In this document: positions 10,751-57,671 of the stretch, one piece after another
Layout: each line of letters begins with the position of its first letter
Numbering within the stretch: the first letter of the stretch is position 1
DNA from: Pseudomonadota bacterium
Lineage (GTDB): Bacteria; Pseudomonadota; Gammaproteobacteria; Burkholderiales; Methylophilaceae
Direction: 5' to 3'
Length of the DNA: 64,000 nucleotides
NCBI GenBank assembly: GCA_029556915.1
Contig: JAKQIT010000050.1
Location: forward strand, 1 to 64,000
Notes under the pieces: generated by a model
What the model saw: the letters and a program-made list of their open reading frames with translations, nothing else
Told to the model about the DNA's origin: nothing
The model's database searches: none
Translations under genes and position numbers: made by a program

Positions 10751-10813
10751 CATTTGACCACCTCTGTAAGCCAGTCTGCATGCGGCTTACAGAGGCATAA
10801 AATTCTCTCGACG
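10751..10813 (-). repeat. Dispersed hairpin repeat, copy A
   Basis: Member of the family described under findings, here on the minus strand. Arms CCTCTGTAAGCC and GGCTTACAGAGG pair perfectly over 12 bp, with a C-to-T/G-to-A compensated position relative to the commonest form; loop GCATGCAGACT. Lies between the dodecin gene end and the LRR kinase start. Confidence 0.85.
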
Positions 10814-10900
10814 AAATTTTGCTTAAAAATTAAGCAATAAAAATGCTGCCAAATTTGGACTACATTGGCAGCAAAATATGCTTGAAAATTGGGTTAAAAG

Positions 10901-11107
10901 TTAGTCGTTTTTAAGGATAAAAGTGAGTTTTAACACCACGCGGTATTCTGTGACTTTGCCATCTTTCACTTTTACGCTTTGGTCTTGCACCCAAGCGCCA
11001 GTGATGCCTTGCAAACTTTCTGCCGCTTTGGCGACGCCTGATGAAACCGCATCTTCAAAGCTGGTGTTGCTGGATGAAATAATTTCAATAACTTTTGCAA
11101 CTGACAT
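10901..11107 (-). CDS. Dodecin flavin-binding protein
   Basis: 68 aa from the ATG at 11107, which has GAGGAG seven bases upstream; an in-frame TTG two codons earlier is unlikely. MSVAKVIEIISSSNTSFEDAV and the later GITGAWVQDQSVKVKDGKV with YRVVLKLTF are the strand-helix-strand-strand pattern of dodecins, which form 12-mers storing flavin. The Trp in GAWV stacks on isoalloxazine in the family. Stands alone with a hairpin repeat downstream. Confidence 0.92.
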   Translation of the reverse strand: MSVAKVIEIISSSNTSFEDAVSSGVAKAAESLQGITGAWVQDQSVKVKDGKVTEYRVVLKLTFILKND

Positions 11108-11137
11108 AATCAAGCTCCTCTGTGGTGGGTAGAAGAC

Positions 11138-11203
11138 TTATTTTACGCGTTTATCGTTTTCAATCAATGCATAAGCGGAATGATTATGAATAGACTCAAA
11201 GTT
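11138..11203 (-). pseudogene. Remnant of a duplicated folE2 3' end
   Basis: The 66 bases read, in the same direction as folE2, [21 protein letters not shown] then a stop, matching the last residues of the intact FolE2 (ending KRIK) at 11264. Several silent differences show the copy is not recent. Immediately upstream the reading frame meets TAA, so it is not expressed as a protein. It lies between the dodecin gene and folE2. Confidence 0.8.
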
Positions 11204-11253
11204 TTAGTTACGACGTAACATCGCTACGCGAGTTAGTCTGCACTGAAACTTTG
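11197..11253. repeat. Short inverted-repeat unit between folE2 and its remnant
   Basis: CAAAGTTTTAGT at 11197-11208 and ACTGAAACTTTG at 11242-11253 are complementary at 11 of 12 positions; the interior carries a further small palindrome GTTACGACGTAAC. It separates the real folE2 stop from the duplicated tail and may act as the folE2 terminator or be an inserted hairpin. Confidence 0.5.
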
Positions 11254-11263
11254 GCAATAACTC

Positions 11264-12064
11264 TTATTTAATACGCTTATCATTTTCAATTAAAGCGTAA
11301 GCACTATGATTGTGAATACTTTCAAAGTTTTCACTTTCCACCGTGTAGGCAATAATGCGTTTTTCCGCATTAAGTTGTGCGGCAACATCGCGCACCATGT
11401 CTTCTACAAATTTTGGGTTGTCGTAAGCGCGCTCAGTAACAAATTTTTCGTCTGGGCGTTTGAGCAAGCCGTAAAGCTCGCACGAAGCTTGCTTTTCAAC
11501 GAGGTCAATAATATCTTCAATCCAAATAAAGTCATTAATTACGGCAGTGACGGTGACGTGCGAACGCTGATTGTGCGCGCCATAATCAGAGATTTTTTTG
11601 CTACATGGACAAAGGCTAGTCACAGGCACCAACACTTTAACGGTGATTTCAAATTTGCCGTGCTCAATCGCACCAATAAATGTGACTTCATAATCTAATA
11701 GACTTTTTACGCCAGAAATAGGCGCAGCTTTATTCACAAAATACGGAAAAGTCATTTCTACGTGGCCAGATTCAGCTTCTAAGCGCTTGACCATTTCACG
11801 CAAAATAGTTTCGAATGACTCTATTGAAATCGCGTGTTCATTCATGTTGAGAATTTCAACAAAGCGCGACATATGTGTGCCTTTAAACTGTTGCGGCAAA
11901 TGCACATACATATTAAACATGGCAACTGTGTGCTGCGTGCCGCCCGCACGGTCTTTGACTACAACAGGGTGGCGTATCGCCTTAATACCGACTTTATCAA
12001 TGGCAATATGACGGGTATCGACAGTGTTTTGTACATCTTCAATCGGTGTGTTAGTCTGAGTCAT
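11264..12064 (-). CDS. folE2: GTP cyclohydrolase FolE2 (type IB)
   Basis: 266 aa. Converts GTP to 7,8-dihydroneopterin triphosphate, the first step to folates; a methylotroph also needs pterins for C1 carriers. The metal/active-site segment [20 protein letters not shown] (about 150-170) is diagnostic of FolE2 and distinct from FolE. The start ATG overlaps nothing and the gene is downstream of dxs. folP, a later step of the pathway, is at 46858. Confidence 0.95.
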
Positions 12065-12103
12065 GATTTTATCGTGTAGAAATTCTTTTAATAGTTGAGT
12101 ATA

Positions 12104-13975
12104 TCACTCGGGTATTATCTTTTCAATAGATGCAATAATACCGTTAGCATCAAGACCGCATTCTGCCAACATAGTTTCATGCACGCCGTGCTCTATAAAT
12201 GTATCGGGTAAGCCCAAGCATAAGGTTAGCTTGTTGATTTGCATTGCTTGCATGGCTTCCATCACCGCGGCGCCAGCCCCACCCATGATTGCATTTTCTT
12301 CAATGGTCACGATTAAGTCATGACTTTTAGCCAGTTCATCAATTAAAGCAGTATCGAGCGGTTTGATAAAACGCATATTAGCTACCGTAGCATCCAATTT
12401 TTCAGCCGCCTGCAAAGCAGGGGCAAGCATGGAGCCAAAAGCCAAAATGGCGACTTTTTTGTTTGATTTTTTACTGTGTCTAACAATCAAACCTTTACCA
12501 ATTTGGATGGTATTTAGTGCGCTCTCGATTTTAGCTCCAGTGCCACTACCGCGTGGGTAACGCACCGCGGCTGGGCCATTGTGCCTAAAACCCGTGGTGA
12601 GCATCAATCGGCACTCACTCTCGTCGCTTGGTGCCATAATAAGCATATTGGGGATGCAGCGCAAAAAGCTAATGTCAAAGCTGCCTGCATGTGTGGGACC
12701 ATCTGCCCCAACCAAGCCAGCGCGGTCAATAGCTAATAAAACAGGCAAATTTTGCAAGGCAATATCGTGTATGAGCTGGTCATAAGCGCGCTGCAAAAAG
12801 GTGCTATAAATAGCCACCACAGGTTTTAATCCGTCGCAAGCCATACCAGCGGCAAAAGTGAGCGCGTGTTGTTCGGCAATGCCCACATCAAAGTAACGGT
12901 CAGGGTATTTTTCTGCGAAAGCATTTAAACCAGAGCCGTCGCACATGGCAGGGGTGATGCCAATTAGTCGTTGGTCGGTTTTGGCCATATCTACTAGCCA
13001 ATCACCAAATATTTCCGTATAGGTTTTTTTTGTTTTTGCGGTTATTGCATCGCCATTAAAAGGGTCAAACTTGCCTACACCATGATATTTATTGGGGTTG
13101 TCTTCAGCCGGCTCAAAGCCTTTACCTTTTTGCGTCACAATGTGTAAAAACTGCGCACCTTTGAGTTGCTTAATGTTTTCAAGCGCAGTAACCAGCGCAT
13201 CTACATCATGCCCATCAATCGGCCCAATATAATTAAAACCAAGCTCTTCAAACAAGGTGCCAGGTAATACCATGCCTTTTACGTGTTCTTCGGCGCGCTT
13301 AGCAAATTCTTGCACATGTGGCATGCCAGATAACACTTTTTTGCCAGATTTACGCACAGCACCATAAAAACGACTGGCGAGTAATTTGGCTAAATAACGA
13401 TTTAACCCACCGACATTATTGGAAATACTCATGTCATTGTCATTAAGCACAACAAGCAAATTTGCTGCGATATGACCAGCATTATTCAGTGCCTCAAATG
13501 CCATGCCCGCCGTCATCGCCCCATCGCCAATAATCGCAACGCTGCGCCGCTCTAAACCAGCTTTTTGTGCGGCTAGTGCCATGCCCAACGCAGCGGATAT
13601 AGAGGTGCTGGAATGCCCAGTGCCAAAGGTATCGTATTCGCTTTCAGAACGGCGAGGGAAACCTGCAATCCCTTTAGGCTTGCGTAAGCTTTGCATGGCG
13701 TCACGTCTGCCCGTCAATATTTTATGCGGGTAAGTTTGATGGCCAACATCCCACACTAAGCGGTCATCCGGCGTATTAAAAACATAATGTAGTGCAATAG
13801 TGAGTTCTACAACGCCTAAGTTTGAAGCAAGATGACCACCAGTTTTTGCCACACTTTCAATTATAAATGCACGTAACTCGTTGGCAAGTTGCGGCAATTG
13901 CGCACGATCGAGCGCGCGCAATTGAATGGGCGAATCAATGATTTCAAGAATAGGTTGGTTTAGTAGTGGAGTCAC
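12104..13975 (-). CDS. dxs: 1-deoxy-D-xylulose-5-phosphate synthase
   Basis: 623 aa. Condenses pyruvate and glyceraldehyde 3-phosphate with thiamine diphosphate, the first step of the MEP pathway. Thiamine motif [16 protein letters not shown] then [11 protein letters not shown] at about 145-175, the TPP/Mg region [12 protein letters not shown], and the transketolase C domain. Start codon is GTG at 13975 with only a weak ribosome site. ispA and xseB follow the standard xseB-ispA-dxs order upstream on the same strand. Confidence 0.97.
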
Positions 13976-14022
13976 AAGTTATTTTGACACATTTATTATA
14001 GTGAGGTCGTATATATACCATC

Positions 14023-14910
14023 TTAAAAACGGCGTTGTGTAATATAGTCAGCCAGTTCACGTAAGCGCAAAGCTTGGTCACCAAAAGGTGCAATTGCTGC
14101 AATGGCATTGTTGTAAAGTTGTTGCGCGTGCATTTTTGCAGTAGCTAACCCTAATATTGTGACATAAGTCGGCTTGTTGCTGTTGGCATCTTTGCCTGCG
14201 GTTTTACCAAGTGTTTGGCTATCTGCCTCAACATCCAAAATATCATCCACTACTTGAAAAGCTAAACCAATATTTTGCGCATAAACTTTTAGCGCATTAA
14301 TTTGTGTTACCGACCCGCTAACCGCCCCTAGTAGCACCGCTGCTTGAATCAGCGCCCCAGTTTTAAGGCAGTGCATGGCCTCCAGTTCAGTTTGGTTTAG
14401 GGGCTTACCAACCGATGCTAGGTCAATCGCTTGCCCACCTGCCATCCCCAGTGAACCAGACGCTTGCGCTAAGATTGCAAGCATTTGAAGCTGAAGGCTA
14501 GCGTTTTTGCATAAGTTGGGGTGCGCCAAGCATTCAAATGCTAAACTTTGTAAAGCGTCTCCAACCAAGAGTGCGGTGGCATCGTCATATTGTTTGTGAC
14601 AGCTTGGCTTGCCGCGGCGCAAGTCATCGTCGTCCATACAAGGCATATCATCATGCACTAAAGAATAAGCATGTATAAGCTCTACCGCACTCGCGGCAGC
14701 GTCCGCTACGGCTAACTCAGTATTACATAAATCTGCGGCTGCGTAACATAGCAATGCACGTACGCGCTTGCCACCACCTAGTGCACTGTAGCGCATCGCC
14801 GAGTGTAATTGCTGCGGCGCTAAATCAGCAGCAGGTAGCGTATGGTCCAGCGTTTTTTCAATACGTATTTGGTGGGTTTGTGCCCAATCAGTAAAGATTT
14901 GTGCAGTCAT
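14023..14910 (-). CDS. ispA: Farnesyl diphosphate synthase
   Basis: 295 aa trans-prenyltransferase making geranyl and farnesyl diphosphate. Both Asp-rich motifs are present: LVHDDMPCMDDDDLRRG (about 87-103) and QVVDDILDVE (about 215-224). GGGKRVRALL near the N-terminus binds the diphosphate of IPP. Spaced 2 nt from xseB and 47 nt from dxs, forming the xseB-ispA-dxs operon. Confidence 0.97.
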   Translation of the reverse strand: MTAQIFTDWAQTHQIRIEKTLDHTLPAADLAPQQLHSAMRYSALGGGKRVRALLCYAAADLCNTELAVADAAASAVELIHAYSLVHDDMPCMDDDDLRRGKPSCHKQYDDATALLVGDALQSLAFECLAHPNLCKNASLQLQMLAILAQASGSLGMAGGQAIDLASVGKPLNQTELEAMHCLKTGALIQAAVLLGAVSGSVTQINALKVYAQNIGLAFQVVDDILDVEADSQTLGKTAGKDANSNKPTYVTILGLATAKMHAQQLYNNAIAAIAPFGDQALRLRELADYITQRRF

Positions 14911-14912
14911 AC

Positions 14913-15158
14913 TTAGTCGATTTCGGGTTTAAATGCCGCCAATTGGTTGCGCTCATTTAATATTTGCACTTGTTGCTCAACATCTGCCAATGATTTTTGG
15001 CAAAACGCCAACAGAGCAATGCCACGTTGGTAGGCTGCTAGCGATGTTTCTAAATTCATTTGCCCTGATTCCATTTGTGCAACAATATTTTCAAGCTCGC
15101 TAAAAGCAAGCTCGTAGCTTTTTGGTTGCGCGGGTTCAGGTGTTTTTTTGGTCGGCAT
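14913..15158 (-). CDS. xseB: Exodeoxyribonuclease VII small subunit
   Basis: 81 aa, typical length. YELAFSELENIVAQMESGQMNLETSLAAYQRGIALLAFCQ is the two-helix family core. Partner XseA is not in the window. First gene of the xseB-ispA-dxs operon. Confidence 0.95.
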   Translation of the reverse strand: MPTKKTPEPAQPKSYELAFSELENIVAQMESGQMNLETSLAAYQRGIALLAFCQKSLADVEQQVQILNERNQLAAFKPEID

Positions 15159-15201
15159 GTTGATTGTTGTAGTAATAACAAGCTCGCTATTCTACCAAAT
15201 G

Positions 15202-15864
15202 TTAGGCTAATACCGCTGTTAAAAAGGTGTGGATGTCTTGAATTTCTTCTAAAGACACATTGTGCGCCATATTATATTGATGCCAGCGAACGTCGTAGTG
15301 ATTCGCTTGCAATACCTTGAGTGAAACTTTGCATAGTTCTAAACTAATTACATCATCATAAGTGCCATGCGCCATAAAAATGGGGGCTTTGGCATTAGCA
15401 ATGTGGGCTTCATCTACAAGTTTGCTTTTAATTGGTAAATAGGTGGACAACGCTAACACCCCGGCGAGTTTTTGAGGATGGCGCAAAGCCGTATATAGCG
15501 CGATTGCGCCACCTTGCGAGAATCCTGCCAGCACTATTCTACTTGCTGGAATGCCGCGTGCTAGCTCATTTTCTATGAGTGAATTAATATACTCTTGGCT
15601 TTGTTTAATGCCTTTCTCATCTTCTTGACTACTCCCTGTTAGGCCATATAAATCATACCAAGCGGGCATAATATAGCCGCTATTACGCGTTACTGCCATG
15701 GCAGGCGCATGGGGCAAAATAAAGCGCACATTAGGCAAGTTTAATTTTTGTACTATGGGAGCAAAATCATTACCATCGGCACCTAAACCATGCATTAAAA
15801 TGACACTGGCATTGATATTAGTGGCTATTTGGCTGGTGAGTTCTAATGGTTTTTTATAATGCAT
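15202..15864 (-). CDS. Carboxylesterase/phospholipase, alpha/beta hydrolase
   Basis: 220 aa cytoplasmic alpha/beta hydrolase of the EstB/YpfH/acyl-protein-thioesterase group. VILMHGLGADGNDFAPIV is the oxyanion segment, GFSQGGAIAL holds the nucleophile Ser, HGTYDDVI the Asp and the HNVSLEEI region the His. Natural substrate cannot be told from sequence. Lies 44 bp upstream of xseB on the same strand and is probably independent of it. Confidence 0.88.
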   Translation of the reverse strand: MHYKKPLELTSQIATNINASVILMHGLGADGNDFAPIVQKLNLPNVRFILPHAPAMAVTRNSGYIMPAWYDLYGLTGSSQEDEKGIKQSQEYINSLIENELARGIPASRIVLAGFSQGGAIALYTALRHPQKLAGVLALSTYLPIKSKLVDEAHIANAKAPIFMAHGTYDDVISLELCKVSLKVLQANHYDVRWHQYNMAHNVSLEEIQDIHTFLTAVLA

Positions 15865-15977
15865 AGTTGATGAAATTTTCGGTCAATTTATCTTAGGTTT
15901 GTTAAAGGGTTTGTTGAAGTTCTATTAATGCAAAAGTCTTTACAGTTATTTTGGCATAAAATGGTTTAGAATTAAGT

Positions 15978-16745: not shown

Positions 16746-16792
16746 TTAGCACTACGGCACCACATTAAAAATAAGAAATTTAAGGATTTAAC

Positions 16793-17869: not shown

Positions 17870-17895
17870 TTATCATAAAATATGGAGTAGACAGT

Positions 17896-22575: not shown

Positions 22576-24033
22576 CTAGTTAGCCATTTTGTTGATAATG
22601 CCTGTCGTACTGCGGCCAGCCACTAAATCAATCAGCGCAATTTCACCACCCCAAGAAAGCACTTCTTTGCCGCCCACCACTTGGTTTGCGGTGTAGTCAC
22701 TGCCTTTGGCGATAATGTTGGGCTGGATGGCGCTGATTAAATTGAGTGGCGTGTCTTCATCAAAAAGTATGACTGCATCTACACTTTCTAATGCGGCTAG
22801 CACGCGCGCGCGGTCATTTTCATTCACCACAGGCCGCGCTGGGCCTTTTAAAGCACTGACTGAGCGGTCTGTGTTAAGGCCTAAAATGAGTTTATCACCA
22901 CGCTTTTTAGCGGCCTCTAAATAAGTCACATGCCCGGCGTGCAGTAAATCAAAGCAGCCGTTGGTAAAGACGATTTTTTGCTTTTGTTGCTTCCATGTAC
23001 TCACTTTTTGTATCAGTTCTGGCAAATCGCATATTTTATGTGCTTGTTCGCTACCTTCTTGCGTGGCGAGCGCGTTTAGCAAATCATGCCTGCTAATCGG
23101 CACCGTACCAACTTTACCCACCACTACCGCAGCAGCAATGTTTGCGAGTTGCAAAGCTTCCAGCGGTGTTAAGTTATGCATCATGCCAGCCGCTAAAGTC
23201 GCAATCACGGTATCGCCCGCGCCTGAAACATCAAACACGTGCTTGGCAATGGCGGGTAAGTGGTGCGACGCACTATCTAATAAGGTAATGCCTTCTTCAC
23301 CGCGGGTGACAGCTAAAAATTGCAAATTTAAGCTGTTTTTTAGCGCAGAGGCTTTGCTGATTAAATCAGGGTTGTTTGGGCTCACATCGCAAGCCTCTGC
23401 GGTCTCTTTTTTATTGGGGGTGAGGGCAGTAGCTCCTGCATATTTTGTGTAATCACGACCTTTCGGGTCCACCAAAACGGGGACATTTTTTGCTTTGCAA
23501 TCCGCAATAATTTGCTGGCAAATAGGCTCACTCAATAAGCCTTTTGCATAGTCAGAAAGGATGACAATCTTTGGCGCACCGCTGAGAGCCGCATGGATAC
23601 TGGCTTGCAGGGCAGCTGCTTCGGCCTCGGTGAAATTCTGGCTGTTTTCTTGGTCTAAACGCATCATCTGCTGGTGACCGCCCAAGATGCGCGTTTTGGT
23701 GATGGTAGGGCGCTGGTTGGATTGCATCACTGCGCTAGTTTCAATGCCAATATTCGTCATCAAATGACGCAAAATATCGGCTTCATTATCTTTGCCCACA
23801 CAGCCAATAATATGCGTTTTAATGCCAAGCAAGGCCAAGTTTGCTGCCACGTTGGCTGCACCACCGGCGCGGTCTTGCTGCGACTTTAACAACACAATGG
23901 GCACGGGTGCTTCGGGGGAAATGCGGCTAACTTCACCCATTAAATAGCGGTCTAGCATCACATCGCCAATTACCAGTGCGTGTTGATTAGTTGAGCCAAA
24001 TTGTTTAACGGTGTTGAGTAGTTTTTGCTGCAT
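22576..24033 (-). CDS. hldE: Bifunctional heptose 7-phosphate kinase / heptose 1-phosphate adenylyltransferase
   Basis: 485 aa. Residues 1-320 are a ribokinase-fold kinase (GGAANVAANLALLG; DVSGAGDTVIATLAAG with the catalytic Asp), residues 345-485 a nucleotidyltransferase (FTNGCFDLLHAGHVTYLEAA). Makes ADP-D,D-heptose for the LPS inner core. Lies 15 bp after gmhA as the last gene of hldD-gmhA-hldE. Confidence 0.97.
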   Translation of the reverse strand: MQQKLLNTVKQFGSTNQHALVIGDVMLDRYLMGEVSRISPEAPVPIVLLKSQQDRAGGAANVAANLALLGIKTHIIGCVGKDNEADILRHLMTNIGIETSAVMQSNQRPTITKTRILGGHQQMMRLDQENSQNFTEAEAAALQASIHAALSGAPKIVILSDYAKGLLSEPICQQIIADCKAKNVPVLVDPKGRDYTKYAGATALTPNKKETAEACDVSPNNPDLISKASALKNSLNLQFLAVTRGEEGITLLDSASHHLPAIAKHVFDVSGAGDTVIATLAAGMMHNLTPLEALQLANIAAAVVVGKVGTVPISRHDLLNALATQEGSEQAHKICDLPELIQKVSTWKQQKQKIVFTNGCFDLLHAGHVTYLEAAKKRGDKLILGLNTDRSVSALKGPARPVVNENDRARVLAALESVDAVILFDEDTPLNLISAIQPNIIAKGSDYTANQVVGGKEVLSWGGEIALIDLVAGRSTTGIINKMAN

Positions 24034-25607: not shown

Positions 25608-25702
25608 AAGCGTATTCGTTTGCTAAAAATAACAGTATAACGCTTAATGCTAAACGCACCAAAATTTGCACAGAAAAACCTGATTTTTTACCAGCAAAAA
25701 TG

Positions 25703-25763
25703 CTCCGAGCGTTTTTTTGCCTCTGGAAGCCGCTTAAAATAAGGCTTCCAGAGGAGATGTGGT
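25703..25763 (+). repeat. Dispersed hairpin repeat, copy B
   Basis: Arms CCTCTGGAAGCC and GGCTTCCAGAGG pair perfectly over 12 bp (compensated C-to-G change), but the 11-nt loop is replaced by an AT-rich one. Left flank CTCCGAGCG is conserved. Between hldD and the GyrI-domain gene. Confidence 0.75.
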
Positions 25764-25788
25764 AATTAGTGGTTAAAATCAGATGTCA

Positions 25789-27266: not shown

Positions 27267-27366
27267 GATTTACCTGTTATAGCCTAACTTTAAGGCGCTA
27301 CAATAACATAAGTTTATTTAACAAATCTTGCTTTAAAAATGGAGTGTATTTTTGGTCGAAAAATAA

Positions 27367-27434
27367 CCCGAGCGAAAATTATGCCTCTGCAAGCCGCATG
27401 CAGACTGGCTTGCAGAGGAGGTGAAAAGAAGTTG
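27367..27434 (+). repeat. Dispersed hairpin repeat, copy C
   Basis: Perfect 12-bp arms CCTCTGCAAGCC / GGCTTGCAGAGG with loop GCATGCAGACT, flanks CCCGAGCG and GGTGAAAAGAAGTTG. Between the RND permease stop and the AraC gene start. Confidence 0.9.
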
Positions 27435-27477
27435 GGGAATTTTAGGCTAAAAATAGCACTTTTTAAATGTACATTTT

Positions 27478-33124: not shown

Positions 33125-33264
33125 GGACGCTGGTTATACGGTGCAAAATTTGCTTAAATTTAGGTGCAAACTTTAACATAAACAAGATACATAAATCTTG
33201 CCTAACATTACCTTTTAGTGCTTTTTTACACTTGTTAAGATATGAGATATTGATATAAAAATCT

Positions 33265-33335
33265 CCCGAGAGGTTTTTACCTCCTCTGCAAGCCGCATGC
33301 AGACTGGCTTAGCGGGGAGGTGAAAAGATTTGCTG
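33265..33335 (+). repeat. Dispersed hairpin repeat, copy D
   Basis: Left arm and loop identical to copy C, right arm altered to GGCTTAGCGGGG so pairing is broken; flanks CCCGAGAGG and AGGTGAAAAGAT kept. Between the membrane protein gene and the pump operon. Confidence 0.85.
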
Positions 33336-33341
33336 TAATTT

Positions 33342-34223
33342 TTAGGTGTTTTCAGCGTGTTTAATGGCTGATTGTTTCCGTGTGGTCGTTAACAGTCCGG
33401 CAATGAAAAAACTGACGATAATGATGAGTTGGTCAGTGATAAAACCGTATTCGCCAATTAATGAAGAAACTTCTTTTCCTTTAATGTATGCAGAGAAGTG
33501 TTGCATTCCATGCGCCAGCAAAAGTGACCCAAACAAAAAAAGCGAGCCTATGTAAACAAGCTGGCGCGACCAAACTCTAGTCCATTTGCTGAGCACCCAA
33601 ACCGAAAAGGCGACTAACAGTGTATGGCAAAGTAAATGAGGCAGACTCATAATCATAATCCACCATTTGTCCGCAATCTGCCAAGCTTGAAGTTTGAGCA
33701 TAATGGTCATATTCATTTGCTCGTTGAAATTACTGGGTAGCAGTTTCCTTGCTAGTATCACACTCCAAACTGAAAACGCCAACACACAAGATGCCAAGCC
33801 AGAAGCTAGCAAAAACTGCGTAAAGCCGTTGGTTTGTGGGGGTTTTTCATCAAAAAAATAGCGCGCCAAATACGCCAGCACGAAGTATATCAAAGTGAAA
33901 ATATACTGCGCATTAAAAATCATGATTGCTAAAGATGCATTTTCATAAGCATAGTACATGCGTGCTGATACGAGTAGCAAAGTGATAACGCTCGTGATTA
34001 GCCCGTAAATAGCAATAGCGAAAAAGCAATATTGCACCCATGTTTTTCTCAGCCATGCACCCAAAATGGCCAGTCCTAAAATACCGGTAAAAGCGATAGA
34101 AGCCACTTGTTTAAAAAGCGTATCTTTCGTTCCAAAGTCTCTCAGCAGATACGCCAACAACGTCAACGAAATAACGGTGAAGATGAACGATTGGTATCTG
34201 TGGTTTTTGATAAGATTTTTCAT
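33342..34223 (-). CDS. Polytopic membrane protein of unknown function
   Basis: 293 aa with about eight hydrophobic helices and short loops; basic N-terminus (MKNLIKNHRYQ) and a charged tail KQSAIKHAENT. No catalytic motif recognised. A longer periplasmic or cytoplasmic loop around 170-190 holds KLLPSNFNEQMN. Bracketed by same-orientation hairpin repeats D and E on either side. Confidence 0.6.
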   Translation of the reverse strand: MKNLIKNHRYQSFIFTVISLTLLAYLLRDFGTKDTLFKQVASIAFTGILGLAILGAWLRKTWVQYCFFAIAIYGLITSVITLLLVSARMYYAYENASLAIMIFNAQYIFTLIYFVLAYLARYFFDEKPPQTNGFTQFLLASGLASCVLAFSVWSVILARKLLPSNFNEQMNMTIMLKLQAWQIADKWWIMIMSLPHLLCHTLLVAFSVWVLSKWTRVWSRQLVYIGSLFLFGSLLLAHGMQHFSAYIKGKEVSSLIGEYGFITDQLIIIVSFFIAGLLTTTRKQSAIKHAENT

Positions 34224-34322
34224 GATGGAGCGGTATCGTTCATGAGTGAATTATGACGTTATTATGCATGAGTTTTTGCTCAAAGAGCAGATGGGAAACT
34301 TTATCGTTCTGGAGTTTAAAAT

Positions 34323-34393
34323 CCCCGAGAGAATTTTATGCCTCTGCAAGCCGCATGCAGACTGGCTTGCAGAGGGGGTGTCATGATGTTGTG
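34323..34393 (+). repeat. Dispersed hairpin repeat, copy E
   Basis: Perfect 12-bp arms and standard loop, flanks CCCCGAGAGAATTTTATG and TGTCATGATGTTGTG. Lies 13 bp beyond the hemH stop, upstream of the membrane protein gene. Confidence 0.9.
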
Positions 34394-34405
34394 TAAAATA
34401 GGGTG

Positions 34406-41611: not shown

Positions 41612-41648
41612 AAATAAACTGTTTTTAAAACCTAGAGTTTAAGCAAAA

Positions 41649-41713
41649 ATCATTTTACCTGCCCGCTAAGCCAGTCTGCATGCGGCTGGCAGAGGAGTGA
41701 AATTTTCTCGGGC
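41649..41713 (-). repeat. Dispersed hairpin repeat, copy F
   Basis: Minus orientation. Arms CCTCTGCCAGCC and GGCTTAGCGGGC are imperfectly paired as in copy D; loop GCATGCAGACT and CCCGAGAAAA flank kept. Between the converging recN and PilZ genes. Confidence 0.85.
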
Positions 41714-41760
41714 TGGTTTTTATGTTTTTGCAATGCACTTTTTTGCGCATTTAGTAACAT

Positions 41761-43466: not shown

Positions 43467-43695
43467 AGGCTGAAAAAATGCAGTAAATAGCAATCGTGAA
43501 GGCTAATCTGTTGCGATGGATAATCAGTTGGGCGTTAACCATGTGAGTATCCATATCATAATTAAGGATACTGCATCTAGGATACTACAGAGAGTTATCG
43601 CTTTCAAATCAATTTTTAGATGCCATGTTAAGTTTAAAAGGCAACACTAAAAATGTGATAAAAAACACTAAAAAATGGTGACTATTTTTAGCAAC

Positions 43696-43760
43696 TTCAT
43701 TTGGGCATCTCTGCAAGCCAGTCTGGATGCGGCTTCCAGAGATATGATTTTCGCTCGGGC
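43696..43760 (-). repeat. Dispersed hairpin repeat, copy G
   Basis: Minus orientation. Arms TCTCTGGAAGCC and GGCTTGCAGAGA pair with one mismatch; both outer bases changed together (T-A instead of C-G). Loop GCATCCAGACT as in copies I and J. Between yhbY and the GGDEF gene. Confidence 0.85.
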
Positions 43761-43766
43761 GTTTTT

Positions 43767-49311: not shown

Positions 49312-49345
49312 TATTAAGCTTAAAAACACCATCTTCCTTAGAGCA

Positions 49346-49400
49346 TGGCTGGAAGCCGCATGGATACTGGCTTGCAGGGCGGTAAAAATCTCTCGGGGGT
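49346..49400 (+). repeat. Dispersed hairpin repeat, copy H (degenerate/chimeric)
   Basis: Core GGAAGCC, loop GCATGGATACT, GGCTTGCAG reads in the plus orientation, but the right side carries AAATCTCTCGGGGG, which is the left flank in inverted form. It therefore looks rearranged. Between the converging glmM and pit genes. Confidence 0.65.
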
Positions 49401-49451: not shown

Positions 49452-49482
49452 AACTAAACTAGCATGGATTAGTGCGCGTATT

Positions 49483-50487: not shown

Positions 50488-50496
50488 CGTTAATCC

Positions 50497-51156: not shown

Positions 51157-51276
51157 CGTGTTATCTCCCGTATAAATTTTAGTATTTTGAATTGCGTATA
51201 GTTTAACTTGCGCAAGCTAATTCTGCGAGGGCTAATCTAACTATTTGTTAATAAGTGCGTATCACTTTTTAACTTT

Positions 51277-51316
51277 GTGACTATTTAATGACAAAATTAT
51301 GACAGTAATATGACAA
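51277..51316 (-). promoter_or_regulatory. Pho box upstream of DUF47-pit
   Basis: On the minus strand TTGTCAT, CTGTCAT, TTGTCAT and a weaker TAGTCAC follow one another at exact 11-bp steps, matching tandem PhoB half-sites. They end about 120 bp before the DUF47 start and point toward it. This 270-bp gap also separates the divergent arsenite pump gene. Confidence 0.85.
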
Positions 51317-51426
51317 AAAGCTAAATAGCATTCTTACTCGCTTTTTAAGGCCAGTTGTTGTCACAAAAATACCATTTTTGTACGCTATAATTCCTCCACT
51401 ATTTTGTATTTATTTGATTACAACAC

Positions 51427-52482: not shown

Positions 52483-52503
52483 CATATTGATTAGGAATAA
52501 AAA

Positions 52504-52914
52504 ATGACGGTTACTATTTACCATAATCCTGCCTGCGGGACATCTCGTAACACGCTGGCGATGATACGTGCCAGCGGGGTTGAGCCGACCGTGATTGAAT
52601 ATTTAAAAACGCCGCCTACGCGCGAGCAACTGCAAGAGATTATCAAGAAAACGGATGGAAACATTCGCGCGCTTATCCGCGAAAAAGGCACGCCGTATGC
52701 TGAGCTTGGGCTGGATGATATGAATTTGTCTGAAAATGCCTTGCTCGACGCTATGCTAAAGCATCCTATTTTAATCAATCGCCCGATTGTGATCACTAAA
52801 AAAGGGGTAAAACTGTGCCGCCCGTCGGAAGTGGTGTTAGAAATTTTAGACAATCCCAATATCGGTACTTTTACCAAAGAAGATGGTGAAGTTGTACAGG
52901 CGCAAAAAAGCTAA
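52504..52914 (+). CDS. arsC: Glutaredoxin-coupled arsenate reductase
   Basis: 136 aa. IYHNPACGTSRNTLAMIRASG gives the catalytic Cys at 12 and the arsenate loop; the RPIVITKKGVKLCRPSE stretch has the Arg set of E. coli plasmid-type ArsC. Reduces arsenate to arsenite for the ACR3 pump upstream. Confidence 0.95.
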   Translation: MTVTIYHNPACGTSRNTLAMIRASGVEPTVIEYLKTPPTREQLQEIIKKTDGNIRALIREKGTPYAELGLDDMNLSENALLDAMLKHPILINRPIVITKKGVKLCRPSEVVLEILDNPNIGTFTKEDGEVVQAQKS

Positions 52915-52970
52915 TTTCTGCTACTTTAAAAAAAGTAAGAAAAACAGCTTATTTTTATCCGTTAATTATC

Positions 52971-53040
52971 GCCGAGAAAAAATAATGCCTCTAAGAGCCG
53001 CATCCAGACTGGCATACAGAGGTGTCAAAATGATGTTGTG
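52971..53040 (+). repeat. Dispersed hairpin repeat, copy I
   Basis: CGCCGAGAAAAAATAATG flank, loop GCATCCAGACT, right flank GGTGTCAAAATGATGTTGTG. Arms CCTCTAAGAGCC and GGCATACAGAGG pair only at the outer five and inner three bases. Closest relative is copy J, 600 bp away on the other side of the prepilin gene. Confidence 0.85.
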
Positions 53041-53177
53041 ATTTTTTATCTCAGTGTTAGCCAATATCTAGCATATTATTTTGAAGGTCAAAAATCGCTA
53101 AAAAGTAGCAAAAATCATTAAAGCTTTTGCTTAACCAGCCGATAAATAGTTATCACTTTTTGGTATGGCAGGGTTTA

Positions 53178-53486
53178 ATGATGTTTAAACAATTGGGTAT
53201 TTCAAGCGTTGAATTGCTGTTGAGTTTAACGATAATTTCGTCAATGTCGGCTTATACTTTGACGATGTCAGAAGAGGTTGAAAAAAGCATTCAGGTTTAT
53301 CAGCATGAAACCAATGTGAAAGAAATGCTGAAAAAAATTAAAGGCCTTAAGTCAGAAAAAGTAAACGCCGCAACAACGGCTAGTGAAGATTTAGCACAAG
53401 AAAATTTAGCGCAACCTTTAGAAACTGCTTTAGAGCAAATGAATGAATCGGTTGAACAAACGCAAGAAATCATCAACCATTCTTAA
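53178..53486 (+). CDS. Orphan type IV prepilin-like protein
   Basis: 102 aa. Start set at the ATG at 53178, five bases after AGGG. MMFKQLG is a short basic leader; ISSVELLLSLTIISSMSAYTL follows with Glu at +5, so it should be cut by PilD. After residue 30 the protein is hydrophilic, Gln/Glu-rich and probably coiled coil, with no Cys and no globular D-region, unlike pilins. No other pilus gene is near. Bracketed by repeats I and J. Function unknown. Confidence 0.65.
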   Translation: MMFKQLGISSVELLLSLTIISSMSAYTLTMSEEVEKSIQVYQHETNVKEMLKKIKGLKSEKVNAATTASEDLAQENLAQPLETALEQMNESVEQTQEIINHS

Positions 53487-53569
53487 CCTGACAGCGCAGC
53501 CATTTTTCCAAGCACGTTAATCACACCGTTAAAACTGCGCATTGCAGATATTTTTATCGAATTATAATC

Positions 53570-53695
53570 GCCGAGAAAAAATCATGCCTCTGAGAGCCGC
53601 ATCCAGACTGGCTTTCGCGTGTGAATAATCCGCTTCAGCGGATATATTTCACGGTGATGCCAAGTAATGGTACAGAGGTGGTGAAATGACTTGTT
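53570..53695 (+). repeat. Dispersed hairpin repeat, copy J with internal insertion
   Basis: Left 40 bases nearly identical to copy I, then the right arm is interrupted after GGC by 58 bases before TACAGAGGTGGTGAAATGA resumes. Between the prepilin gene and prfB. Confidence 0.85.
53613..53670. repeat. 58-bp hairpin-bearing insertion inside repeat J
   Basis: Compared with copy I, this block is extra. It carries its own hairpin, ATCCGCTTCAGCGGAT, within outer arms GTGAA and TTCAC. It looks like a second small structured unit that entered the first. Confidence 0.6.
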
Positions 53696-53779
53696 GCTAA
53701 AACCTTTCAAAAAGCGCAATTTTTACCCGTTTTAAATCTGCTGTACAATACGCGTTTTTTATATGCTAGCGTAACTATC

Positions 53780-54884
53780 ATGGAAGCCGAACAACTCAAT
53801 ATTATCAACAATCGCCTTGCAGATTTAAGCGAGCGTCACCTTGCCCTTCGGGGGTATCTTTGACTTTGAAAATAAGTCACATAAATTAGAAGAAGTAAAT
53901 GGTCTGTTAGAAGACCCTAATGTTTGGAACGATGCCGAAAAAGCGCAAAAACTTGGTAAAGAAAAACGTAGCTTAGAGTTAGTCGTCCATAACTTACAAA
54001 ATTTAGAAACCGGTATTAAAGACGCGCAAGAGTTATTTGATATGGCGCGTGAAGAAAATGATGACGACACCTTACATAGTATTGCCGAGGATTCGCTAGC
54101 ACTTGAAACGCAAATTGCCGAGATGGAGTTTCAGCGCATGTTTTCGGGCGAACTCGATAATGCGAATTGCTTTGTGGAGTTTCAATCCGGCAGTGGCGGC
54201 ACGGAGGCGCAAGATTGGGCGGCCATGTTGCTACGCATGTATTTACGCTATTGTGAGCGCAAAGGCTTTAAGGTGGAAGTGCTGGAAGAGTCTGACGGCG
54301 ATGTGGCAGGCATTAAGGGCGCATCACTTAAGGTGAGTGGCGATTACGCTTACGGCACCTTGCGCACCGAGAACGGCGTGCATCGTCTAGTGCGTAAATC
54401 GCCTTTTGACAGTAACGCGAAACGCCACACCAGCTTTGCCAGTGTGCAGATTTTCCCAGAAGTGGATGATTCGATTCAAATTGAAATCAACCCGGCTGAT
54501 TTACGGATTGATACTTATCGTGCCAGCGGCGCGGGCGGGCAGCATATTAACAAGACCGATTCCGCCGTGCGTATTACGCATATTCCCACTGGTGTGGTGG
54601 TGCAGTGCCAAAATGACCGTAGCCAACATCGCAATAAAGATGAAGCGATGAATATGCTCAAAGGCGCGCTGTATAATTTAGAGTTAAATAAACGTAATGC
54701 AGAAAAACAGGCGTTGGAAGATGCTAAAACGGACATTGGTTGGGGGCATCAAATTCGCAGTTACGTGCTGGACCAAGGCCGCATTAAAGACTTGCGCACT
54801 GGGGTGGAAATTGGCAATACGCAGGGCGTTTTAGATGGAGATTTAGACCCGTTTATTATGGAAAGCTTGAAACAGGGCGTTTAA
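53780..54884 (+). CDS. prfB: Peptide chain release factor 2, with programmed +1 frameshift
   Basis: 367 aa after frameshifting. Reading starts at the ATG at 53780, meets in-frame TGA at codon 28 (53861-53863), slips +1 on CTT and continues from 53862. The downstream part has the SPF codon-recognition motif in [11 protein letters not shown] and the GGQ catalytic motif in [15 protein letters not shown]. Recognises UGA and UAA. A repeat copy lies 85 bp upstream. Confidence 0.97.
53850..53864 (+). promoter_or_regulatory. prfB autoregulatory frameshift site
   Basis: GGGGGTAT, a Shine-Dalgarno-like run, is three bases before CTT TGA C. This is the conserved RF2 frameshift window: low RF2 lets the ribosome pause at UGA and slip +1. 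Confidence 0.95.
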
Positions 54885-55723
54885 TTTGTTGTTTCGCCGG
54901 TTGGCACGCCAATTATCGCTTTCGCTTTTTCTACATCCACCCGTAAAAACGCGGCAATTTCTTTGTAATCATCAGGGAGTGCGGCATCATCCCAGCCATT
55001 GGCTGAGTGGCGCGCAAGGTTGATGGCTAATCGCACATTGGTGGCGTGATGGTCGTTTGAATTTTCATCATCCATCAATTTAGAGAGCAATGGCGGTAAC
55101 TGAAAATTTTCAACTAGCGCTTTTTGTAAATCAGAAATCTTAAATCCTAATACCCGTTCTTGCGCAACCTTACTGCGTAGCGTTTTATCTGCCTGCTGCA
55201 AATGCGCAATATTTAGCATTTTATTGGGTGCAAAGCACCACAACAGCATTTCAGCTAAATCATGCAGCAACGTGCCAATATGCACTTCATCTGAGCGTAA
55301 ATCTTTATGATAAGCCGCCCAATCAGTTGCGTAATAGGTGGCGCGGTGGGTGCGTTTCACAATTTTGAGTAACTGGCCTAACGCGGGTAGCTTATCTTTG
55401 AGTTGATCTTCTATTACTAAATTGGTTGGTAGGTTTCGGTAAAACGCATTAGTGCCCATCATCAAAATGGCTTGTTCCACTTGAATCAAATCTTGCTGTT
55501 GATGTTTGCTAGGGTGTTGTTTTGCATAACTTAGCACGCGAAACACCATAAAAGGGTCGTGTAGCACGATAGGCGTGATATTGCGCACTGTGAGCTTGTT
55601 TTCATCTTCTTTAAGATTTTGCAACTCACGCGCGGTGAGCTTTAACACGGGGATTGGCTTGTTACTTAAAAAGTCAATCCACGCTTTAATCGCATTGTTT
55701 ACAGTATTTTCGCTGGTAGTCAT
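54881..55723 (-). CDS. HDOD domain protein
   Basis: 280 aa from the ATG at 55723, which follows AGGAGC. Residues 20-200 fit [20 protein letters not shown], ...[30 protein letters not shown] and [21 protein letters not shown] proteins are catalytically silent relatives of HD-GYP and act in signalling. Ends 4 bp inside the converging prfB end. Confidence 0.88.
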
Positions 55724-55879
55724 TGAACATGCTCCTATTATCGTTTTAGCATACACTAACATTGTTCAATTTAAAGCTTGGAATAAAGGCATAAAATCGC
55801 CCTAAATAAAAATGGTTGAAAGTGTTAAAATGCTGGTTTTGATGCAAAATTTGCGATTAACTTGAGATGTGAGCACCGT

Positions 55880-57397
55880 ATGACCGATGAAAATTTGCCG
55901 ATTGTTGATGAAAACCACGTAATCGCCGAGCGCCGCGAGAAGCTAAAAGCCATTCGTGAAATGGCTAAAGCCAGCAATGGCGCGGCTTTTCCTAACGATT
56001 TTAAGCCTCAACATAAATCAGCAGATTTACAAGCGCAATATGGTGCGTTAGATAAAGAAACCTTAGACCCTCAAGCGATTTCTGCCACTGTGGCAGGCCG
56101 CATGATGTTGAAACGCGTGATGGGCAAGGCCAGCTTTGCGACGATTCAAGATGCCACAGGCCGTATTCAGCTCTATATCGCGCGCGATGAAATTGGCGAA
56201 GAGTTGTATGAGGCCTTTAAACATTGGGATTTGGGCGATATTCTGGGCGCTAGCGGCCGCTTGATGAAAACCAAAACCGGCGAACTTTCGTTGCATGTGA
56301 GTGAAATTAAGCTGCTCACTAAATCGCTACGCCCGTTACCTGAGAAATTCCACGGCTTGCAAGACCAAGAAGTGAAATATCGCCAACGTTATGTTGATTT
56401 AATCACTTCTGAAGAAACCCGTGCGACTTTTATTGCGCGTAGCAAAGTGGTTTCGGCGATTCGCAACTACATGACCCAGAACGAATTTTTAGAAGTTGAA
56501 ACACCGATGTTGCACCCGATTCCCGGTGGTGCATCAGCCAAACCATTTATTACGCACCACAATGCGCTGGATATGCAAATGTTTATGCGTATCGCCCCAG
56601 AGTTATATCTGAAGCGTCTCGTGGTGGGCGGTTTTGAGCGAGTGTTTGAAATTAACCGTAACTTCCGCAATGAAGGCTTGAGCGTGCGCCATAACCCAGA
56701 ATTTACTATGATGGAGTTTTATGCGGCTTATACCGATTATCAATGGTTAATGGATTTTACTGAAAATTGCATCCGAACTGCTGCGATAGCTGCACGCAGC
56801 ACAGCGGTGTTGGAATATGCGGGTAAACCCGTAGATTTGAGTAAACCATTTCAACGCTTAACGATTGTGGGTGCAATTCAAAAATATGCGCCGCAATACA
56901 CACTTGAGCAACTCAATGACGCAGCATTTTTGCGCACAGAGCTATACAAACGCGGCATCAAAGTGTTCGACCATGCTGGCTTGGGTTCGCTACAACTCAG
57001 CTTGTTTGAAGAAACTGCAGAAAGCCAACTGTGGGAGCCAACCTATATTATTGACTATCCCGTTGAAGTGTCTCCATTGGCGCGTGCAAGTGACAAAAAC
57101 CCTGAAATTACCGAGCGTTTTGAACTATTTATCACCGGCCGTGAAATGGCCAACGGTTTTAGCGAGTTAAACGATGCGGAAGACCAAGCGACGCGCTTTC
57201 ACGCGCAAATGAAAGCCAAAGAAGCGGGCGACCAAGAGGCAATGTATTACGACGCAGATTTTATCCGCGCGCTAGAATACGGCATGCCGCCAACAGGCGG
57301 TTGCGGCATTGGCATTGACCGTTTGGTGATGCTTATTACGGATAGCCCGAGTATTCGTGATGTGATTTTGTTTCCGCATATGCGGGCGGAAAGCTAA
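55880..57397 (+). CDS. lysS: Lysyl-tRNA synthetase, class II
   Basis: 505 aa from the ATG at 55880 (GAG six to eight bases upstream); six upstream codons starting with TTG are excluded. N-terminal OB-fold (about 65-150), motif 2 [30 protein letters not shown] and motif 3 [19 protein letters not shown]. prfB-lysS adjacency is common, with the HDOD gene inserted here. Confidence 0.97.
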
Positions 57398-57540
57398 CGA
57401 AGCACGGAATAAGTGTCTGCGCAGGCGAACTGCTGTGTTGCGCGGTACTCGAAATCCTCATGTACTTTGTGTACACTCCGGTTTCTGTGTTCCGTGCGCC
57501 TTGCAACTCCTCCTGCTCGCCAACTTCTTTCATGCTTCGT
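57397..57540. repeat. Long structured region after lysS with several inverted repeats
   Basis: ACGAAGCA at 57397 pairs with TGCTTCGT at 57533; GGCGAACTGCTGTGTTGC at 57424 pairs partly with 57503-57521; GCACGGAA at 57402 pairs with TTCCGTGC at 57490; and ATGTACTTTGTGTAC gives a small central hairpin. The pairings cross, so they are alternative folds. No protein-coding sense. Looks like a non-coding repeat unit. Confidence 0.55.
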
Positions 57541-57552
57541 TGCGTAAAGTTT

Positions 57553-57577
57553 AGCCCGAAATTTCGGGCTTTTTTAT
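57553..57577 (+). terminator. Terminator after lysS
   Basis: AGCCCGAAA and TTTCGGGCT form the stem, followed by TTTTTATT. Confidence 0.88.
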
Positions 57578-57601
57578 TGCCTAAAATTTAAGCAAAAAAC
57601 G

Positions 57602-57671
57602 TCCGAGAGATTTTTGTGCCTCTGCAAGCCGCATGCAGACTGGCTTACAGAGGAGGTGAAATGATGTTGTG
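57602..57671 (+). repeat. Dispersed hairpin repeat, copy K
   Basis: Arms CCTCTGCAAGCC and GGCTTACAGAGG (one C-A mismatch), standard loop, flanks TCCGAGAGATTTTTGTG and AGGTGAAATGATGTTGTG. Between the lysS terminator and the pst promoter region. Confidence 0.9.

Follow-up and report, generated by a model that had tools for sequence, protein, structure and literature searches.

A bacterium that very probably belongs to the genus Methylotenera carries a family of dispersed hairpin repeats, each about 75 bp long, that mark the 3' ends of transcription units in either orientation and are rare between divergent genes. Extrapolation from 69 units in 464 kb gives a genome total of about 490 copies. 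We regard the family as new: it was matched to no known one in Rfam or in a search of plasmids and phages, and is set apart from ERIC by description. The reading that we favour, with confidence somewhat short of even, is that these are short, non-autonomous palindromic interspersed repeats resembling ERIC and REP elements, abundant in a few related Methylotenera, which would spread by the capture route proposed below and be tolerated at 3' ends.

Structure of the repeat unit

The unit consists of CCGAG, an AT tract, a 12-bp hairpin and then a tail resembling AAATGATGTTGTG (AAATGATGTTG-like). The outer frame is asymmetric, with CCGAG and the AT tract on one side of the hairpin and the tail on the other, and the 11-nt loop occurs in both orientations. 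The initial annotation had described a common layout of loop and flanks; by matrix score, 14 of 69 units carry the loop the other way round with respect to their flanks. A stricter count by flank boxes, over 69 core matches that include chance ones, gave 42 in the common orientation (flip), 10 inverted (flop) and 17 without a class. The two forms partly cluster by flank (0.83 vs 0.69; 0 of 200 shuffles).

Compensatory changes in the stem, from which selection on the structure had been argued, are real, modest within this genome and clearer with a second species. Among 37 copies from the host genome there were 15 double-change cells against 9.0 after shuffling (7 of 500 shuffles as high) and a covariation score of 0.102 against 0.074 (5 of 500 as high), with three base pairs showing a double change against 2.9. 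When 49 copies from the second species (G035) were added, which mixes two dialects, the double-change cells rose to 79 against 43.9 (0 of 500), and pair 22/52 covaries within G035 alone (38 against 24.4; 0 of 1000). Selection on the structure is supported only in part: the cross-dialect changes and pair 22/52 speak for it, but the predicted consensus fold retains only five inner pairs, none of them with a double change, and pair 26/48 is unpaired in 23 of the 37 host copies and in 42 of 85 copies from the two species combined.

Repeats in the 64-kb window

A weight matrix built from 37 copies was applied at a threshold of 18 bits to the whole stretch of 64,000 nucleotides that was analysed (the window). 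All eleven intergenic units claimed at the outset were recovered, along with a twelfth that falls within the coding frame of hldE (Table 1). Scores exceed 30 bits in 10 of the 12, the weak ones being the hldE copy and the unit at 25701. One unit, at 53568, has a longer form that carries a 58-bp module; similar modules occupy this point in four units on contig C14 and in some of genomes G003 and G027. The arm CCTCTGCAAGCC occurs 26 times with at most two mismatches, against 4.8 expected and 10 in the largest shuffle. The gap that holds the unit at 49320 also contains a separate T-tailed hairpin.

Table 1. Repeat units and associated features in the window
Feature	Position	Strand	Score (bits)	Remarks
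Unit, intergenic	10735..10814	-	100.7	Core in common orientation (flip)
hldE	22576..24033	-		Bifunctional heptose-7-phosphate kinase / adenylyltransferase; host of coding copy
Twelfth match, inside hldE	23553..23632	-	24.2	Residues FTEAEAAALQASIHAALSGAPKIVILS; core 20/20; loop flop
Unit, intergenic	25701..25780	+	20.9	Divergent loop GCTTAAAATAA
Unit, intergenic	27365..27444	+	105.6
Unit, intergenic	33264..33343	+	56.3	Right-arm variant TTAGCGGGGAGG
Unit, intergenic	34322..34401	+	108.1
Unit, convergent gap	41635..41714	-	91.4	Downstream of recN
Unit, intergenic	43682..43761	-	94.8
Unit, convergent gap	49320..49399	-	83.1	Loop inverted relative to flanks (flop)
Unit, intergenic	52969..53048	+	82.2
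Unit, long form	53568..53694 (end approximate)	+		Usual left half and hairpin, 58-bp module, right arm CAGAGG and right flank
58-bp module, within right arm of long-form unit	53615..53672	+		Between GGCTT and CAGAGG; terminates in GGTGATGCCAAGTAATGGTA
Unit, intergenic	57600..57679	+	107.5	Exact right flank GGTGAAATGATGTTGTG

Abundance and position relative to genes

Further copies are plentiful outside the window. The matrix found 69 units in the 464 kb sampled of the host genome (G000), and the core AGCCGCATnnAnACTGGCTT occurs genome-wide at 262 places with at most one mismatch; the reversed pattern occurs at none, and 400 kb of random Markov sequence gave no matrix match down to 12 bits. Density is alike in two species, with 69 units in 464 kb of G000 and 49 in 327 kb of G035, or about one per 6.7-7 kb. 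Units are single, without doublets: the closest neighbours are 599 bp apart in the window and 1615 bp apart in C14. They are not spread significantly more evenly than at random (CV 0.85 vs 0.94, with 25% of nulls as low).

The claim that all copies lie outside genes was nearly right, as 63 of the 69 do, but six fall inside predicted genes, including the copy in hldE. A unit is held by 28 of 45 convergent gaps in G000, by 30 of 321 co-directional gaps and by 4 of 45 divergent ones; an independent count in G035 gave 19 of 34, 23 of 226 and 3 of 32, respectively. For convergent gaps of at least 80 bp in G000 the figure is 27 of 31, and of 191 3' ends that resemble those of transcription units, 78 have one. 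In co-directional gaps the units show no preferred orientation (15 in the same direction, 16 in the opposite one). Of the original interpretation, a REP/MITE-like family of dispersed hairpins is supported, placed at the 3' ends of genes in either orientation.

Evidence for insertion at intergenic sites

Judged by gap distributions, the intergenic copies appear to add length at the sites they fill. The median convergent gap, among gaps below 600 bp, is 126 bp in G000 and 139.5 bp in G035 against 53 bp in G068, a relative with 2 units in 728 kb and 8 model matches genome-wide. The excess of 73-87 bp (Mann-Whitney p 0.008 and 0.027) is about one unit, so these copies look inserted; divergent gaps do not differ in length between G000 and G068 (p 0.89). 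Against this argument, G068 is the sole near relative in the comparison and may have undergone clean loss. Orthologous intergenic sites are few, with seven ends and three element pairs with G068, at which lengths differ by -598, +44 and +122.

Target-site duplications, sought as a mark of transposition, were not found: the mean longest flank match is 5.21 against 5.20 for shuffles (63 of 69 units). Terminal inverted repeats were likewise not found: CCGAG... at one outer flank does not pair with ...TTGTG at the other, and inverted flank matches equal those of shuffles; the palindrome is internal.

Copies within genes

In-frame copies occur in HldE, PabB, MutL, GluQ and a ZIP transporter, the last compared with one orthologue. 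The hldE copy shows no insertion, with 0 gaps over a 44-residue stretch against 19 orthologues. In G000 the pabB frame reads through the whole unit, and G068, G034 and G035 have versions related to it; the length is within two residues of 25 of 29 orthologues, the other four being 3-6 residues longer, with no inserted block, and orthologues that lack the unit still show partial similarity there, in residues and in DNA (residual homology). The absence of gaps in hldE and the near-constant length of pabB argue that these copies are not simple insertions. GluQ, by contrast, has a clear inserted block, with 12 extra residues found only in G000 among 22 loci; in MutL, whose linker varies in length across the genus, the copy may be of either kind. 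None of the 49 units in the 327 kb of G035 lies in a predicted gene. The 25-nt core also lies on native-looking coding DNA in low-copy genomes, for example in a histidine-kinase-like gene (G024, G068), in mutL (G069) and in a PrmC-like gene (G030), the first and last of these names being assigned by eye.

The mutL and pabB copies sit at matching positions in G000 and G035 and, in core comparisons, lean to their own species' dialect, by more than simple inheritance explains. MutL cores are clearly nearer to own-species units (19 vs 15 of 21, and 21 vs 17). For PabB the lean is less clear, at 20 vs 17 in G000 and, in G035, at 19 vs 18 for the best match and 16.7 vs 12.9 on average.

Distribution and dialects across the genus

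By model matches, five of the 52 genomes of the genus carry the family in abundance: G000, G034 and G035 with at least 90 each (90 is the number of candidates scored per genome, hence a lower bound), G001 with 65 and G009 with 62. In a pabB tree that is midpoint-rooted, retains the unit region in the alignment and has G001 on a long branch, the four of these five that the tree includes share one side of a branch with G068 (support 97/91). The two sampled carriers, G000 and G035, have different sequence dialects: the loop TTTATTTATAA or its inverse is present in 30 of 49 G035 copies and absent among the G000 loops listed. Another loop type, AATATCCATGC, is common to G001, G024 and several more relatives. 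A search of plasmids and phages with one unit as query gave no match; Rfam gave none at gathering score in the window except two tRNAs, and around one unit all scores fell below gathering.

RAYT genes and movement of the repeat

Movement of REP elements by a RAYT was the leading candidate at the outset, and a RAYT gene was indeed found. It is the only one in the genome (NF047646, E 2e-58, at G000:C14:239711-240148); its reading frame ends in a unit (240148-240227), and there is another unit some 1.8 kb upstream. RAYTs above the cut-off are present in three of the five high-copy genomes (G000, G034, G009) against 19 of the 47 others. A role as mover is nevertheless not supported, because G035 (94% complete) has at least 90 units and no RAYT match, and 11 of the 22 genomes with a RAYT have no unit match; eight have 1-8 and three at least 62. 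G001 has the RAYT only as a 37-position fragment below the cut-off, yet holds 65 units, and G020 has 10 RAYT-like matches and one unit match. Another inverted pair, GTAGGGCG ... CGCCCTAC, stands just upstream of the host RAYT, the layout expected of its own REPIN, although the exact 13-mer tested from that pair occurs once in the genome. The units are single rather than REP doublets. Movement by a RAYT is highly improbable, and the search of Y1/RAYT families yielded no moving enzyme. In REP and REPIN sequences a conserved guide tetranucleotide, GTAG for example, sits at the foot of the stem; the unit consensus has no GTAG there and a conserved CCGAG about 11 nt outside it.

Origin and possible role of the repeats

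In the reading that we favour, a hairpin-forming single-stranded copy would be captured at replication gaps or breaks by some enzyme, sometimes replacing target DNA instead of adding to it. Replacement would account for the lack of target-site duplications and for coding copies that keep length and frame, while template switching between the two arms could flip the loop and repair the stem, and copy turnover could homogenise the dialect. Against this reading stand the hldE and pabB copies, the lack of both a Y1/RAYT mover and target-site duplications, and the own-dialect lean of mutL and pabB. Units would be tolerated, and perhaps used, at mRNA 3' ends; a function, if any, would most likely be that of a 3'-end hairpin, and a protein-binding site, named among the first candidates, may be another. 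That selection keeps the unit as an element that ends, protects or processes transcripts, so that most convergent pairs have one, is unlikely, even though occupancy of convergent gaps and 3' ends, the stem-keeping changes across dialects and pair 22/52 would fit, and some relatives (L226, L213, L155) have the core hairpin with an A tract on one side and a T tract on the other, like an intrinsic terminator. The same map would also arise if 3' spaces merely tolerated units. The consensus has no T tract directly after the stem on either strand, and canonical terminators are equally common at 3' ends with the unit (22 of 78 with its own hairpin masked, 28 of 78 unmasked) and without it (34 of 113; p 0.87). 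The absence of orientation bias, the frequent unpairing of 26/48, the copies inside genes and the conservation of flanks and arms beyond pairing needs also speak against such an element.

A DNA signal driven in place, like a DNA uptake sequence, would spread as alleles because a cell-surface or recombination protein prefers DNA with the motif; it would accumulate at permissive sites (3' ends, protein linkers) and in genes without indels, its dialect changing with the receptor. The hldE and pabB copies on native protein sequence, the own-dialect lean, the cores on coding DNA of low-copy genomes and the shared density of about one per 6.7 kb all favour this idea, and excerpts of PMC3630211 describe in real uptake sequences dialects, permissive sites, association with terminators and, in Simonsiella, dyads (1294 occurrences as overlapping pairs in dyad symmetry). 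It is unlikely all the same, as convergent gaps lengthened by roughly one unit, none of the 49 G035 units lies in a predicted gene, spacing is not significantly even, and unit words are near expectation outside units (CTGCAAGCC 13 vs 9.4, TGCAAGCC 46 vs 44.3, CTCTGGAA 7 vs 4.8, CCCGAGAG 0 vs 1.4). Uptake sequences are 10-12-mers with about 940 to nearly 6000 copies in the same excerpts, and literature searches on natural transformation in Methylotenera (by title) and on a DNA uptake sequence in Methylophilaceae gave no support. The broader proposal of a self-spreading, genome-wide signal, sculpted in place in genes and 3' ends and re-written per species by biased uptake or copy homogenisation, is rather unlikely. 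Birth from a gene fragment, with pabB as the best candidate source, and later spread like that of Rickettsia palindromic elements is very unlikely: the in-frame pabB unit, its related versions and the residual homology would suit it, and Rickettsia elements too are found in frame inside genes (PMC2229807, in part), but hldE, mutL and the other coding matches require separate explanations and the AATATCCATGC loop type is not seen in pabB.

Relation to known systems and significance

Like ERIC (IRU), the unit is an imperfect palindrome, intergenic, without its own transposase and in frame inside some genes. ERIC, compared by description only, is 127 bp long against about 75 bp here, and part of PMC2229807 gives it TA ends, inverted repeats of 7 bp at its termini and a target-site duplication; the last two have no counterpart in the flank comparisons with shuffles. 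REP/REPIN systems share the extragenic hairpins, the hundreds of copies and, in the copy that ends the single RAYT frame, a link to RAYT; they differ in that presence here does not track that of RAYT across 52 genomes, units are single and the RAYT has another inverted pair. Rickettsia palindromic elements are also both intergenic and in frame in conserved protein genes, but are longer (105-146 bp in the same part of PMC2229807) and belong to another host group, and only GluQ among four coding sites here has a clear inserted block. DNA uptake sequences (DUS/USS) have species dialects, permissive intragenic sites and 3'-end hairpins in common with the family, and differ from a 75-bp unit in about 490 copies whose component words show no clear enrichment outside units.

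It has long been asked how short repeats, ERIC among them, spread with no known enzyme, and an unmatched family with species-variable sequence and copies in working genes is a good test case for it. The combination of the same density, different dialects and own-dialect mutL and pabB copies means that sequences of closely related strains could separate insertion, concerted evolution and in-place drive. Should the signal reading be true, this genus of freshwater methylotrophs would possess an uptake- or recombination-type signal that had gone unnoticed, hairpin-sized and of a kind without description for Methylophilaceae in the literature searched.

Anatomy and abundance of the repeat unit

The unit consists of CCGAG and an AT tract, two arms (CCTCTGCAAGCC and GGCTTGCAGAGG) enclosing an 11-nt loop, and then GGTGAAATGATGTTGTG. 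Sequence checks and the consensus of copies bear out the anatomy and coordinates proposed in the initial annotation, and a weight matrix built from 37 copies recovered all eleven of its intergenic units in the window. The accompanying claim that every copy lies outside genes holds for those eleven but not for a twelfth matrix match, which falls inside hldE.

The family extends genome-wide: the hairpin core occurs with at most one mismatch at 262 places, while the reversed pattern occurs at none. Across 464 kb of the source genome, G000 (the window together with 400 kb from contig C14), 69 units score at least 18 bits; at this density the full 3.28 Mb would hold about 490. A 400-kb Markov sequence gave no match down to 12 bits. 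Relative to its flanks the loop is inverted in 14 of the 69 units by matrix score. The common ("flip") and inverted ("flop") forms are partly grouped by flank similarity, nearest neighbours being alike at a frequency of 0.83 versus 0.69 after shuffling (0/200 shuffles), so some inverted units derive from one another. Loop inversion itself could arise by template switching between the two arms.

Long-form units carry a module of 57-58 bp between GGCTT and CAGAGG (CAGRG), typically TTCGCATTCGACTTAGTGC...GGTGATGCCAAGTACTGGTA. It occupies the same place in the stem in these units, and its middle hairpin is variable. Five such units lie in the 464 kb of G000, one in the window and four in C14, and units of two further genomes, G003 (L155) and G027 (L434), contain a similar module. 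Because GGCGATGCCAAGCACTGGTA-type modules are also seen in hairpins of a different context, the module may be part of a second repeat family.

Positions of the nested module and of other features discussed in the text
Feature	Sequence	Position	Strand
Nested module	window	53615-53672	
Nested module	G000:C14	near 155.0 kb	
Nested module	G000:C14	near 237.9 kb	
Nested module	G000:C14	near 280.5 kb	
Nested module	G000:C14	near 323.8 kb	
GGCGATGCCAAGCACTGGTA-type module, other hairpin context	L206 (G009)	near 1.6 kb	minus
GGCGATGCCAAGCACTGGTA-type module, other hairpin context	L289 (G068)	near 6878	
RAYT with terminal unit (L156)	G000:C14	239711-240227	
ORF matching leucine-rich-repeat and protein-kinase-like models	window	9356-10678	minus
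Second gluQ-like gene	G000:C161	959-1831	

Distribution across the genus and wider searches

The genus of G000 is very probably Methylotenera (Betaproteobacteria, Methylophilaceae). A covariance model found matches in 15 of 52 Methylotenera genomes. There are at least 90 (the number of candidates scored) in each of G000, G034 and G035, 65 in G001 and 62 in G009; G024 has 14, G068 8, G003 6 and G007 4, and the others with matches have no more than 2. A pabB tree built from 30 genomes, G009, G024 and G003 not among them, places G000, G068, G034, G035 and G001 on one side of a branch with support of 97/91. This grouping is a clade under midpoint rooting, with G001 on a long branch and the unit region left unmasked.

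The bare core, at up to three mismatches, is more widespread (22 of 52 genomes), and in some outlying species it takes the form of hairpins between A and T tracts. At L226 (G012), L213 (G027) and L227 (G018), apparently one orthologous locus in outlying Methylotenera, the core stem lies between A-rich and T-rich tracts and resembles a bidirectional intrinsic terminator. L117 was rejected as a unit on inspection of its sequence. A core-pattern scan of wider genome contigs returned at least 70 stretches, where tens are expected by chance for 17 fixed bases; three among those listed come from Methylotenera sp. P-RSF-NP-04. A paired-arm screen retained 6 of the 70 genome-contig stretches listed and 2 of 31 viral ones, and the unit flanks were present in none.

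Position relative to genes and terminators

Gene starts, gaps and coding status were taken from a custom hexamer gene finder rather than from curated annotation. On this basis, units occupy 28 of 45 convergent, 30 of 321 co-directional and 4 of 45 divergent gaps in G000, and 19 of 34, 23 of 226 and 3 of 32, respectively, in 327 kb of the second high-copy species, G035. Within the co-directional gaps of G000, 15 units share the direction of the genes and 16 have the opposite one. A unit is found at 78 of 191 transcription-unit-like 3' ends in G000, and canonical terminators, scored with the unit's own hairpin masked, are similarly frequent at ends with it (22/78) and without it (34/113; p 0.87). 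The unit thus marks 3' ends without visibly replacing terminators, and its reading as a plain terminator is unsupported in G000. Even spacing of units was tested and was not significant. The window also holds an ORF matching leucine-rich-repeat and protein-kinase-like models (effector-type and kinase), all below curated cut-offs.

Covariation in the stem

The initial annotation took paired compensatory changes as an argument that the structure is selected or maintained. In an alignment of 37 regularly spaced flip units, drawn from 42 flips with 10 flops and 17 others set aside, paired cells reach 86.0% versus 84.6% in shuffled alignments (24/500 as high), double-change cells number 15 versus 9.0 (7/500), and the covariation score is 0.102 versus 0.074 (5/500); pairs with double changes number 3 versus 2.9. 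Pair 26/48 is unpaired in 23 of the 37 copies and is free in G035 too, and none of the 5 inner pairs in the predicted G000 consensus fold shows double changes. When 36 of these units (the module-interrupted one omitted) were aligned with 49 from G035, double-change cells rose to 79 versus 43.9 (0/500), the difference between the two species' versions of the unit, or dialects, contributing part. Pair 22/52 covaries within G035 alone (38 versus 24.4, 0/1000), and pair 20/54 does so weakly in each of G000 and G035 (p 0.017 each). On this pattern a number of stem positions are maintained, whether through selection or through copying from one arm to the other. The compensatory changes are real, modest in G000 and better across two species, but they are not proof of RNA selection; template switching could give rise to them too.

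Proposed insertion of the intergenic copies

The G000 relative G068 (median protein identity about 80-83% in samples) is almost without the family, with 2 units in 728 kb. Among gaps shorter than 600 bp, convergent ones have a median length of 126 bp in G000, 139.5 bp in G035 and 53 bp in G068 (p 0.008 for G000 and 0.027 for G035, each against G068), and divergent gaps do not differ between G000 and G068 (p 0.89). Unless there was clean loss in G068, the longer gaps of the carriers imply that intergenic units lengthened their sites by about the size of a unit. No target-site duplications were detectable in the flanks of the 63 units (of 69) that score above 45 bits, and a search for terminal inverted repeats found none. 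Orthologous intergenic sites were too few for comparison: 48 adjacent pairs between G000 and G068, three with units; 27 pairs between G000 and G035, one shared and one confined to G000; and seven comparable 3' ends, three shared. The intergenic copies are best read as insertions of a non-autonomous unit.

One candidate mover in the initial annotation, a REP-associated tyrosine transposase (RAYT), is unlikely on its presence pattern across the 52 genomes. RAYT matches above cut-off occur in 3 of the 5 high-copy genomes versus 19 of the 47 others, unit matches are absent from 11 of the 22 RAYT genomes, and high-copy G035 has no RAYT match. In the single RAYT of G000 the reading frame runs out in a unit, which thus codes for the final residues of the protein, and a separate inverted pair, GTAGGGCG...CGCCCTAC, lies just upstream. 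For REPINs the source used is PMC3116915; by the summary in PMC2229807, ERIC and Rickettsia elements are nearest to the unit in form.

Copies within genes and the origin of the pattern

Six of the 69 G000 units lie within predicted genes (hldE, mutL, a ZIP transporter, pabB, gluQ and the 3' end of another gene); none of 49 G035 units does. GluQ has 12 extra residues, found in G000 alone among 22 loci. A second gluQ-like gene (67% identity) lies on G000 contig C161, possibly from another Methylotenera given an assembly contamination estimate of 5.65%. HldE has no gaps across a 44-residue stretch against 19 orthologues, and PabB is within 2 residues of the length of 25 of 29 orthologues, the other four being 3-6 longer and the orthologues partly similar across the unit site. 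Neither shows an inserted block, and simple insertion explains neither. The MutL linker varies in length genus-wide, with an ALQ-type segment there in many of 30 loci. MutL cores are nearer to units of their own species (best identity 19/21 versus 15 in G000, 21 versus 17 in G035), and PabB leans less to its own dialect (20 versus 17 in G000; in G035, 19 versus 18 at best and 16.7 versus 12.9 on average).

In low-copy genomes the core also falls on native-looking coding sequence: mutL in G069 and, by names assigned by eye, a histidine-kinase-like gene in G024 and G068, a PrmC-like gene in G030 and a Gfo/Idh-like C terminus in G075. A three-mismatch core search gave 32 matches in the 30 loci listed, 11 in predicted genes and 21 outside. 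Some of the three-mismatch ones look like chance, such as a phosphoglucomutase-like site (by eye) in L421, L443 and L447. Counted over 135,163 residues in G000 and 92,302 in G035, the peptide footprint L[QRE][AT][NS][IRLM] shows no excess in either, so coding copies are rare.

The main rival to insertion is that the unit pattern arises in place, from a driven DNA signal like an uptake sequence. The coding copies, at least two of them without an inserted block, keep this explanation alive, and it stays the main rival because the uptake sequences of Neisseriaceae, as described in PMC3630211, likewise have dialects, sites at permissive places inside genes, and dyad symmetry. Against a classical uptake word, the unit's component words are in no clear excess by word counts. 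For the intergenic copies insertion is still the preferred reading, and the hldE and pabB copies are the chief unexplained observation.

Titles and abstract openings, in a coverage that takes in few subscription journals, gave no account of such a family in Methylotenera or Methylophilaceae. The repeats form a real and sizeable ERIC/REP-like palindromic family, undescribed in the literature covered, and its unusual features are its dialects, loop flips, nested module and in-frame coding copies.
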